Part shown: positions 952 through 8,741 of the stretch, one piece after another
How positions within the stretch are numbered: position 1 is the stretch's first letter
Layout: each line of letters opens with the position of its first letter
NCBI GenBank assembly: GCA_016193385.1
Contig: JACPSF010000199.1
Span: forward strand, 1-33,906
DNA: 33,906 nucleotides
Reading direction: 5' to 3'
Origin: Deltaproteobacteria bacterium
GTDB lineage: Bacteria > Desulfobacterota_B > Binatia > UBA9968
Program-made: the position numbers and the translations under genes
Notes under the pieces: generated by a model
Told to the model about the DNA's origin: nothing
Databases searched by the model: none
Seen by the model: the letters and a program-made list of their open reading frames with translations, nothing else

Positions 952-1800
952 TTAGGGAGCAGGCTTCCCGCTTCGCGCGTATTTCCCTCTCAAAGAAACG
1001 TAAAGCACTTCACATAAGACCTGCCGGGTGAAACCGCTCTCACGTTTTTCATGTAAAACGAGATTCTGAACTCCTCGTTCCAGTACGGGGGCAATGAGCA
1101 TTCCTCCGACCTTGAGATGCTCCAGCAAGGGAGGGGGAATCTCAGTGCAAGCGGCAGTGATGCAAATTCTGTCATAAGGGGAAAACTTTGGATAGCCGAG
1201 GCCTCCATCTCCTTTTACAAGCACGATATCGCGATAGCCTGCAGCTTCGAGATTTTTTCTCGCATACTCAAACGTCAGCGGATCGATTTCAATGGACACA
1301 ACCAGGCCATTGTTGCCCACAATCTCCCGCGCAAGGGCCGTGCCATAACCGGACCCAAGCCCCACCTCTAAAAACCTGTGGCCTTCGTCTAGCAGGGTGC
1401 GGAAAAAGTGTTTTTCATGCTTCGAGAGTCTCAGCATGAACGGAAAATCGCGAATGATTTCAAGGGCTGCTCCGTTCGCCCTGAGTTCGTCGAAGGGTGA
1501 ACGGAGCGTTTTTCCGCAGCCTGCTAGACCCAGAGGCTCATAAAAGAGCGGATAGCTGTGGGGGCACGATATCGATGCCTCCTCGCCTGGTAGTGGGAAC
1601 GGGACTTCGAGGTAGGCATAATCTCTGTAGGACTGTGGCATGAAATCCTCTCTCGGGACCTTGAGCATGGCATTTTTGATCCGTTCGGCCCTGAGATATC
1701 CGTATCTGAGAAGCGATCTCACCTTCCTTTCTCTTTCCCTTTTTAGCTCTTCCTTGGTTTTCGTGGGCTCTTTTGGTGGCGGCACTCTCCAGCCCTGCAT
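952..1800 (-). CDS. pcm: Protein-L-isoaspartate O-methyltransferase with a 45-codon in-frame insertion
   Basis: This SAM-dependent enzyme repairs isoaspartyl damage in proteins. The N-terminal part carries VPREDFMP (about residues 48-55) and the ISCPH substrate loop near 77. SAM motif I is FLEVGLGSGYGTA near 143-155, followed by VSIEID, YDRICITAAC and a GGMLIAPV strand. The family is usually about 210-230 residues; this one is 282. The excess comes mainly from a basic N-terminal extension and a foreign segment at about residues 91-135, between the substrate loop and motif I. That segment is encoded by the inverted-repeat element at 1387-1529. Without it the protein reads LGL-DEGHRFLEVG, a normal family join. 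The frame is open throughout, but the insertion lies just before the SAM-binding loop, so activity is uncertain. Confidence 0.9.
   Translation of the reverse strand: MQGWRVPPPKEPTKTKEELKRERERKVRSLLRYGYLRAERIKNAMLKVPREDFMPQSYRDYAYLEVPFPLPGEEASISCPHSYPLFYEPLGLAGCGKTLRSPFDELRANGAALEIIRDFPFMLRLSKHEKHFFRTLLDEGHRFLEVGLGSGYGTALAREIVGNNGLVVSIEIDPLTFEYARKNLEAAGYRDIVLVKGDGGLGYPKFSPYDRICITAACTEIPPPLLEHLKVGGMLIAPVLERGVQNLVLHEKRESGFTRQVLCEVLYVSLRGKYARSGKPAP
1387..1529. mobile_element. MITE-like/palindromic element inserted in pcm
   Basis: Imperfect 21-bp terminal inverted repeats lie at 1387-1407 (GTCTAGCAGGGTGCGG then AAAAA) and 1509-1529, with one mismatch. CTAG at 1389-1392 and CTAG at 1524-1527 can be read as a 4-bp target duplication. 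The core is then 1393-1523 (131 bp) and the net gain 135 bp, exactly 45 codons. Two further palindromes lie inside: arms 1414-1421/1433-1440 (TTCATGCT/AGCATGAA) and 1470-1482/1494-1506 (CTCCGTTCGCCCT against its near complement). On the pcm strand these encode PFDELRANG and MLRLSKHE, peptides that I recall as frequent translated-repeat scars in environmental genomes. There is no transposase, so it would have moved in trans. A YTAR-type target would fit IS5-family elements, which is inference. Confidence 0.8.
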
Positions 1801-4041: not shown

Positions 4042-4811
<770 letters not shown>

Positions 4812-7096: not shown

Positions 7097-8143
7097 CTAT
7101 CTCCCCTTGCCCTTTTCCTTCTTTTCCGGTGTGGGCGCCTGGCCGCCCGCACGCTTGAGGCCTGCCTTGTCCAGGATCCTGTCGGCCAATTCTTTGGCCG
7201 TCTCGGGGTGTTCCTTGAGGAACGCTTTGGCGCTCTCCCGACCCTGGCCTATTCTTTCCCCGTTAAAGGAGTACCATGCGCCGCTTTTTTCCAGAATCCC
7301 CGTGTCGCTGCCAATATCGACCAGCTCACCATCGCGCGAGATGCCTGTCCCATAGAGAAGGTCAAACTCCGCCTCTTTGAAGGGGGGGGCGAGCTTGTTC
7401 TTCACCACCTTGACTCGGGTCCGCCCCCCGATGACCGCGTCTCCCTCCTTGAGGGCGCCGGTGCGCCGGATGTCCATGCGCAGCGAGGCATAGAACTTCA
7501 GCGCATTGCCTCCGGTCGTGGTCTCAGGATTGCCGAACATGATCCCGATCTTCATCCGGATCTGGTTGATGAAGACGACGATGGTTTGGGAACGGGAGAT
7601 GGTCGCGGTGAGCTTGCGCAGGGCCTGGGACATCAGGCGGGCCTGAAGCCCCATATGGGCGTCCCCCATCTCTCCTTCGATCTCGGCCTTGGGAACCAGG
7701 GCCGCCACCGAGTCGATGACCAGGACATCAATGGCCCCGCTGCGGACCAAGGTCTCGGCGATCTCCAGGGCCTGCTCCCCATGGTCGGGCTGAGAGATCA
7801 AAAGGTCGTCGGTCTTTACCCCGAGTCTCTTAGCATAGCTCAGATCCAGGGCATGCTCCGCGTCAATGAAAGCGCCGATCCCTCCTTGCTTCTGGGCCTC
7901 CGCGATAATGTGCAGGGCGAGAGTGGTTTTTCCCGAGGCTTCAGGGCCATAGATCTCAACGACGCGGCCGCGCGGCACTCCGCCTACGCCCAAGGCGATA
8001 TCGAGACCAAGGGAACCGCTCGATATCACGGCGATATCTTTGATCAGACCGCCTTCCCCGAGCTTCATGATTGCCCCTTTACCAAACTGCCTCTCGATCT
8101 GACTGACCGCGAGATCAATCGCCTTCTCTCGATTTACATCCAT
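7097..8143 (-). CDS. recA: Recombinase RecA
   Basis: RecA is the DNA strand-exchange ATPase and SOS co-protease. The 348-residue product has Walker [10 protein letters not shown] (about residues 67-75), the [16 protein letters not shown] segment with Walker B, QALRKLT, the [14 protein letters not shown] loop and GNALKFYAS, all canonical. The C-terminus is the usual variable, charged tail. ATG 8143 is preceded by AAGGAGGAAGG; the upstream open frame to 8191 runs into thpR. It follows thpR by 22 bases, so it is part of the pgpA-cinA-thpR-recA-recX run. No LexA-type box was identified directly upstream. Confidence 0.98.
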
Positions 8144-8165
8144 GACCTTCCTCCTTGTATCGACC

Positions 8166-8741
8166 TTAGGGTAGAGAGCGCTCAACGCCAAGGGAGAGAA
8201 CCCCCAAGGGCTTGTAAACAGCGCCTTGCGGCTTAAGGACGCTTTGAAAAAAGACCGCTTCCTTCACCCATGACTCGCCAAAATCGTGATCTCTCCAGCG
8301 TTCGATCTCTTCCTTCAAGTGCTCTATGGAGCCGCTGAAATGGCCCCAGCGCCCAATCGTAAGATGAGGTGTGAAGGCTCTCTTCTCCCGTGGAAAACCC
8401 ATGGCTTCCAAAACCTTCTCCACTTCTTTCGCCAAAGACTCCAGGCCCTCCGCCCACAACCCTATCCACAGAACCCTGGCTCTCTTTATGTCAGGAAATA
8501 CCCCTATTCCTCTGCCGTTCATGGGGAAGGCCGGTGTAGCGGAGAGGGCTTGCTCCAGGGCCTTCAGTATGGGCCCGATCTTCTCCTCTTGAACCTCTCC
8601 AAGGAACTTGAGGGTAAAGTGGAGGTTTTCGGCCCTGACCCACCGGATGCCGCTCAATTTCCGCTTGAGTTGGGCTTGTACCTCGAAGATTTTCTGGACC
8701 ATATCCGGTTCGATCCGGACAGCGACGAAGGCTCGAATCAC
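8166..8741 (-). CDS. thpR: RNA 2',3'-cyclic phosphodiesterase ThpR (LigT)
   Basis: This 2H-phosphoesterase superfamily enzyme hydrolyses 2',3'-cyclic phosphate ends of RNA. Both catalytic HxTx motifs are present: HFTLKFLG at about residues 41-48 and HLTIGR at 126-131. The length, 191 residues, is usual for the family. The start is GTG at 8741, which overlaps the TGA stop of cinA (GTGA), a sign of translational coupling. The position between cinA and recA is conserved in several bacterial groups. Confidence 0.93.

Follow-up and report, generated by a model that had tools for sequence, protein, structure and literature searches.

The pcm gene in the window, which is the whole 33,906-nucleotide stretch analysed here (contig JACPSF010000199.1 from a Deltaproteobacteria bacterium), hosts a 131-bp mobile element that has no genes of its own and leaves the reading frame unbroken. 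There is good evidence for the identity of this segment (positions 1393-1523), which is confirmed as a genuine in-frame insertion of a MITE. We consider it very likely that this is an IS5-type MITE, non-autonomous and carrying two REP-like hairpins as cargo, that was mobilised in trans and landed at a CTAG site within pcm.

The insertion in pcm

The pcm gene (952..1800, minus strand) codes for a protein-repair enzyme, a protein-L-isoaspartate O-methyltransferase of 282 amino acids that includes a 45-residue insert (residues 92-136). The assignment is based on the open reading frame, a match to Pfam PF01135 (E 4.8e-47) and insert-free homologs. A preliminary description had placed a palindromic element at 1387..1529. 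The element is present, and its precise limits are 1393-1523 (minus strand, the orientation in which its hairpins are read), with the flanking CTAG being duplicated target outside the element. Every feature described earlier was recovered, including the 21-bp arms with one mismatch, CTAG on both sides, two inner palindromes and a frame that is open throughout. The arms at 1387-1407 and 1509-1529, flanking bases included, are 21 nucleotides long and complementary at 20 of 21 positions (95%). The element proper ends in 15-bp terminal inverted repeats that differ by one mismatch: CAGGCTGCGGAAAAA at the upstream end (1509..1523, minus strand), which resembles insertion sequence (IS) ends, and CAGGGTGCGGAAAAA at the downstream end (1393..1407, plus strand). 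The pcm element is short, free of a transposase and bounded by terminal inverted repeats, as expected for a MITE.

In pcm orientation, one CTAG lies upstream (1524..1527, minus strand) and the other downstream (1389..1392, minus strand), and both conform to the family duplication YTAR. They are 135 nucleotides apart and in codon phase. If the flanks are joined at one CTAG, precisely 135 nucleotides drop out in phase, which agrees with the predicted net gain of 131 + 4 = 135 bp, or 45 codons. The joined flanks encode a normal methyltransferase of 237 amino acids that reads ...PLGLDEGHRFLEVG...

The eight best other Pcm homologs are 235-238 amino acids long and 72-74% identical to the query. Residues 92-136 are absent from all 21 homologs that were aligned, which were hand-picked among 119 others listed, and the Leu137-Asp138 pair overlapped by CTAG is invariant across this alignment. 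A protein query of 58 genomes around a Deltaproteobacteria MAG, that MAG included, gave a match at E <= 1e-20 in 18, although three of these matches (one in genome G001 and two in G004) cover mainly the element. The closest real Pcm ortholog is in genome G012, with protein identities of 88% and 87% in two pieces. Its locus aligns with the joined pcm gene free of gaps at 613 of 713 identical nucleotides (86%), and so an empty site exists in relatives. The expected empty CTAG was not found as such, because the target reads CTGG in this locus and CTCG in a second relative (locus L001), so the exact CTAG is preserved in neither. The proposal of a mobile palindromic element is therefore supported by the terminal repeats, the duplicated CTAG, the empty site in relatives and the existence of other copies.

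The 143 nucleotides that include the arms fold strongly as RNA, at -68.4 kcal/mol and z -9.1 versus 200 shuffles. The corresponding z for DNA is -9.2, none of the 200 shuffles is as good in either case, and both strands beat their shuffles. The window has no Rfam matches at gathering scores. Elsewhere in the window, two stretches (1-191 and 4581-4719) are 95-97% identical, with 1-59 corresponding to 4581-4639 and 113-191 to 4641-4719. The first has about 53 extra bases (60-112) that are absent in the second. A truncated N-terminus of alanyl-tRNA synthetase (4434-4646, minus strand; PF01411 positions 1-57 of 552), which ends in a stop, overlaps the second stretch.

The ribosome would read through the insertion because 131 + 4 = 135 and because this orientation and phase contain no stop, which would yield a Pcm protein whose 45 extra residues form a loop that connects an alpha helix to strand beta-1. 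In an AlphaFold2 model of P0008, a homolog without the insert (mean pLDDT 74.5 for the best of five models, with 45.5 as the lowest), the 45 residues would enter between residues 92 and 93, within a coil that links helix 82-90 to strand 97-101. The alignment with relatives of solved structure, among them 2yxe, continues across this position. The insertion had been described as lying next to the SAM-binding motif. It does adjoin the motif in sequence, but since the motif follows strand beta-1 and the insertion falls in the loop before it, the two lie at opposite ends of that strand, which is a statement of topology and not of distance. The model with the insert (mean pLDDT 44.7) is too poor to use.

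Pcm probably tolerates the insert and does not benefit from it. The near-identical ends of the element suggest a young insertion, so that the intact frame is no proof that Pcm still works. There is a fair chance, though short of an even one, that pcm is dying, with the enzyme inactivated by the insertion and decay not yet begun. The MITE explanation is compatible with this reading, which bears on what becomes of the gene. The ends differ at one position, so the insertion may be recent, and the strong RNA fold noted above lies within the coding region. The drop in mean pLDDT upon insertion also points this way, although the two values come from different proteins and alignments and are no clean comparison. 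Against this reading, the 282 codons have no stop or frameshift, the homolog alignment has no other gaps outside the insert up to the variable ends, and the predicted site of insertion is a loop.

Dispersed copies and the likely mover

The preliminary description expected further copies of the repeat, and these are seen in other genomes. The Deltaproteobacteria MAG mentioned above (locus L003, genome G001) carries a near-identical copy, with 137 of 143 nucleotides the same (96%) and TTAG on both sides, that stands among genes other than pcm. This copy (L003 2100-2242) occupies the end of an open stretch of 331 codons, just upstream of the possible start of the next ORF (MLIDAHAHLD...). The same genome holds 26 family matches at E <= 1, and 12 stretches of at least 85 bp match at E <= 1.2e-12. 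Family matches at E <= 1e-6 occur in 21 of 97 genomes around this MAG, itself included; only about eight candidates per genome were scored in that survey, so its match numbers are lower bounds. The RecA protein of the window organism is 87, 86 and 82% identical to those of genomes G008, G012 and G028, respectively; a search of four further genomes with it gave no match at E <= 1e-60.

The copy set was defined as every distinct pair of facing ends, each with at most four mismatches to an 18-base pattern, about 100-300 bp apart. It comprises 45 distinct copies, the window copy and 44 in other genomes, and lengths other than 131 bp also occur. YTAR is present on both sides of 29 copies, as identical 4-mers in 23; the two sides differ in the other six, and YTAR is missing on one or both sides of the remaining 16. 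Exact direct repeats at the flanks are found at 4 bp in 23 of 45 copies and in at most one at 2, 3 or 5-8 bp, which bears out the proposal that CTAG is a duplicated target. CTAG alone cannot separate a duplication from a longer inverted repeat, and hence the 11 copies with asymmetric YTAR serve as the test. In five the two sides agree as direct repeats (CTAA/CTAA, TTAG/TTAG), in none do they agree as inverted repeats, and six fit neither pattern. The family thus consists of dispersed copies with a target duplication.

Plasmids and phages gave no family match at E 1e-5, and viral contigs gave no exact match to the pattern of the second hairpin. The literature searched yielded no publication on the repeat family or its peptides, and of the DNA words from the repeat only the shortest matched, once per paper, in papers on unrelated subjects by title. 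The available part of one paper (PMC12306157) makes no mention of the family.

A candidate autonomous partner is found in genome G028 (locus L058), where facing ends, CAGGCTGCTGAAAAA at both, enclose 1341 bp that encode a single transposase of 376 amino acids. This protein scores 296.7 bits with the NCBIfam IS5 model NF033581 (cut-off 140) and 219.9 with the IS1182 model, below the cut-off of 270. The flanks of this element are themselves unequal (CTAG and TTAG). Among 193 genomes searched for the transposase, 17 have matches at E <= 1e-60. We inspected 22 IS loci, consisting of 21 transposase matches and a relic in G012, and at 11 of them YTAR stands on either side of an end pair, with identical 4-mers at seven, although some end pairs at IS loci are weak, with up to nine mismatches over 20 bases. 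The other half comprises 10 loci with no credible end pair, several being partial genes, and one with YTAR on one side only. Three genomes that carry copies (G001, G004 and G008), all fragmented assemblies, have no transposase relative at E <= 1e-30.

IS701 is a source of YTAG targets. It was considered as the partner and dropped once the G028 transposase scored as IS5. YTAR is the published duplication motif of IS5 in the portion of the source available (PMC10359306). Judged by sequence, the G028 element and related IS in other genomes appear to be autonomous partners with the same ends as the MITE, and the combination of a 4-bp YTAR duplication with a partner transposase in the IS5 model would make the family IS5-type. 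An IS5-family transposase is thus the likely mover. Such a transposase would bind the 15-bp ends of the MITE and cut the CTAG that lies at the Leu-Asp codon boundary of pcm with a 4-bp stagger, and repair would then duplicate CTAG.

The hairpin cargo and its outer ends

The interior of the element carries two REP-like hairpins. Hairpin 1 (1470..1506, minus strand; inverted repeats 1469-1482/1494-1507) has 12 counted pairs and encodes SPFDELRANG, whereas hairpin 2 (1414..1440, minus strand; inverted repeats 1414-1421/1433-1440) has eight and encodes MLRLSKHE. The peptides PFDELRANG and MLRLSKHE had been likened earlier to repeat-derived scars in other environmental genomes, and the same peptides or variants do recur in other translated copies. 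The hairpins stand in opposite orientation, as in a REPIN, in which two inverted REPs form a single unit.

Among 17 copies of the 131-bp subfamily, the paired fraction of cells is 94.6% for hairpin 1 and 98.5% for hairpin 2. Over three helices it is 94.3%, compared with 37-52% when partners are slid, a lenient control because the structure was drawn from the same sequences. Covariation is modest. Nine cells changed on both sides (reached by 5 of 500 shuffles) and the covariation score is 0.078 (4 of 500), whereas the number of pairs changed on both sides (4; 167 of 500) and of further pair types (14; 278 of 500) does not exceed that in shuffles. At one pair of hairpin 2, A-U, G-C and G-U replace one another.

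This cargo is also found with different outer ends. Genome G004 has 37 exact matches to the pattern of hairpin 1. Of the 19 that we inspected, with several further ones left out, none is at the known ends of the kind found in pcm (shell A). Twelve are surrounded by GATTCTGCTGAAAAA-like ends (shell B), and four (L144, L145, L148 and L160) have other, ATTAAGGAGTTCATAAGTAAG-like flanks (shell C). The remaining three comprise one that resembles shell A (L147), one with degenerate ends (L159) and one with the hairpins in another order (L161). A shell-B consensus, built from 30 copies in G004, G018 and G011 (loci within L143-L182), agrees with shell A in 81% of the inner columns (102 of 126), yet in only one of four columns at each outer end. 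The outermost 4 bp are CAGG in shell A, which has the 4-bp YTAR duplication, and GATT in shell B, which has one of 6 bp.

Exact 6-bp direct repeats flank 12 of 29 fully flanked shell-B copies, versus 0.04 expected from random pairing. Among the others there is one 7-bp repeat and one 3-bp repeat, and the rest have none. The 6-bp repeat is plain in cargo-bearing copies of G004 (L143, L146, L149 and L154). The shared cargo was read copy by copy in G004, and in some cases (L183-L186) the sequence between shell-B ends is a different one. Shell C is the weakest of the three cases. One such copy (L145) shares 73 of 92 columns (79%) with the shell-A cargo, and the duplication is determined for shells A and B only.

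No full-length IS behind shell B was recovered. In genome G023, a sequence that is 99-100% identical and carries a shell-B end occurs at 15 places (L183, L184, L195-L209), and at least 11 of the 15 start within seven bases of a contig start. This sequence is perhaps an unassembled IS with shell-B ends. We offer, as a tentative proposal that might well prove wrong, that two transposition systems amplify one REPIN-like cargo in one lineage, such that the cargo and not the ends would be the conserved unit of an end-swapping MITE.

The presence of one cargo between different ends also raises the prospect that it is the REP-like hairpins that move, by the action of a RAYT (Y1 transposase), and that the outer ends are incidental. 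The hairpin pair has the inverted order of REPINs, Y1_Tnp matches were found in all eight genomes searched, and one match (G018:C631:7913) lies about 87 bp from a shell-B copy. However, IS200/IS605-type transposition is not known to make a target duplication of the kind seen here at 4 bp in shell A (23 of 45 copies) and at 6 bp in shell B (12 of 29). Furthermore, the element ends resemble those of IS5-type IS, and the hairpin base lacks a GTAG or CGTC tag, the sole CGTC of the pcm element being in the loop of hairpin 1. Movement by a RAYT is thus improbable. The Y1 transposase match in G018 (locus L174, C631:7280-8230) extends over 7913-8242 with one TAG inside, in a REPtron-like neighbourhood.

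The open frame and related systems

The frame of the pcm element might be open because the family is adapted to translation, but we see no sign of this. Because TAR read as a codon is a stop, YTAR is not available as a target in that phase, and four insertion configurations remain. The pcm copy is open in two of the four, which is ordinary given that at least two are open in 58% of dinucleotide-shuffled sequences. In the 131-bp subfamily, the frame is open in 10 of 17 copies, whereas random mutation of the consensus leaves 12.2 open on average, with at least 10 in 92% of 1000 simulations. Only two of the 45 copies (the window copy and one in L005) stand in a frame that is open for at least 50 codons on both sides, although gene-breaking insertions would escape this count. 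Frame survival therefore looks like luck plus tolerance, with the frame no more open than chance; because openness matches the shuffles and the simulation, a length of 131 + 4 = 135 and luck suffice. Differences from the consensus at codon positions 1, 2 and 3 number 81, 58 and 94, which leans towards coding, but shared ancestry makes these counts hard to read.

In 13 of 45 copies, an open stretch of at least 150 codons ends at a stop codon supplied by a flanking YTAR, versus 69 of 650 control sites (Fisher p 0.001). At 100 codons the counts are 17 of 45 versus 137 of 650 (p 0.015), and at 60 codons they hardly differ (20 of 45 versus 233 of 650). The controls are YTAR sites in the same loci, which leaves nearness to gene ends in general uncontrolled. 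Gene-sparing insertion, in which the duplication restores the stop codon, would fit these counts.

These data bear on the comparison with Rickettsia palindromic elements that was made at the outset. As described in the available parts of the literature (Ogata et al. 2000/2002; PMC10969869, PMC3733652), these are palindromic repeats, first described at about 150 bp, that keep the frame open in unrelated genes. The outcome in pcm is alike, a palindromic repeat in a gene with its frame kept, but the MITE has terminal repeats, a YTAR duplication and a likely IS5-type transposase that acts on the terminal repeats as mover. This comparison is one of descriptions and not of sequences. Frequent in-frame insertion into ORFs was not seen for the MITE family, in view of the two copies in long open frames and an openness not above chance. 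A strict protein-coding element of the Rickettsia type, selected for an open frame and a whole-codon length and spreading inside genes, would agree with the +135 of the subfamily, its 10 open copies and the clean fusion in pcm. Since mutation and shuffling leave frames no less open, other element lengths occur and long frames on both sides are so few, we regard such an element as a poor candidate. The notion of the 45 residues as an ancient, conserved feature of this Pcm subgroup, which the preliminary description named as the observation that would count against an insertion, is practically untenable, given their absence from all 21 aligned homologs and a search with the insert region whose 27 candidates yielded the window protein and one weak match (E 0.94) only.

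An IS5-type MITE with a REP-pair cargo resembles several other known systems. Intragenic GTAG/CGTC REPs, in the available part of their description, are short hairpins in opposite orientation, some of which lie within ORFs and add 20-82 residues (Di Nocera et al. 2013; PMC3733652). The pcm element likewise has short, opposed hairpins within an ORF, but its stems end without a GTAG or CGTC tag, its loops are 11 nucleotides in contrast to 4-5 in CGTC repeats, and its hairpins are enclosed in an element with terminal inverted repeats and a target duplication. QMITE2 of Coxiella, as far as the accessible portion of its report goes, is also a REP-containing MITE with some in-frame insertions (PMC5896051). 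It has variable duplications of 7-11 nucleotides and a GTAG REP, unlike the 4-bp YTAR and untagged hairpin pair in pcm.

The cargo corresponds to a REPIN in form only, since it lacks GTAG and the unit lies within terminal inverted repeats with a target duplication. IS5-family MITEs in general have the ends and target of an IS5-type IS and no transposase, as does the pcm MITE. What sets the latter apart is a REP-pair cargo shared with a second shell that differs in outer ends and duplication.

The insertion itself is known in kind, and closer attention is due to the occurrence of the REP-pair cargo between different ends. In pcm, a MITE has added 45 codons to a housekeeping protein in a setting where the empty site, the target duplication and the likely transposase family can all be examined. 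If peptides like PFDELRANG and MLRLSKHE recur in environmental protein sets, as the preliminary description holds, then translated REP-like hairpins would explain them. An end-swapping MITE, if real, could also leave translatable inserts in host proteins. If one cargo does travel between two types of ends, then what makes this cargo worth keeping becomes a testable question.
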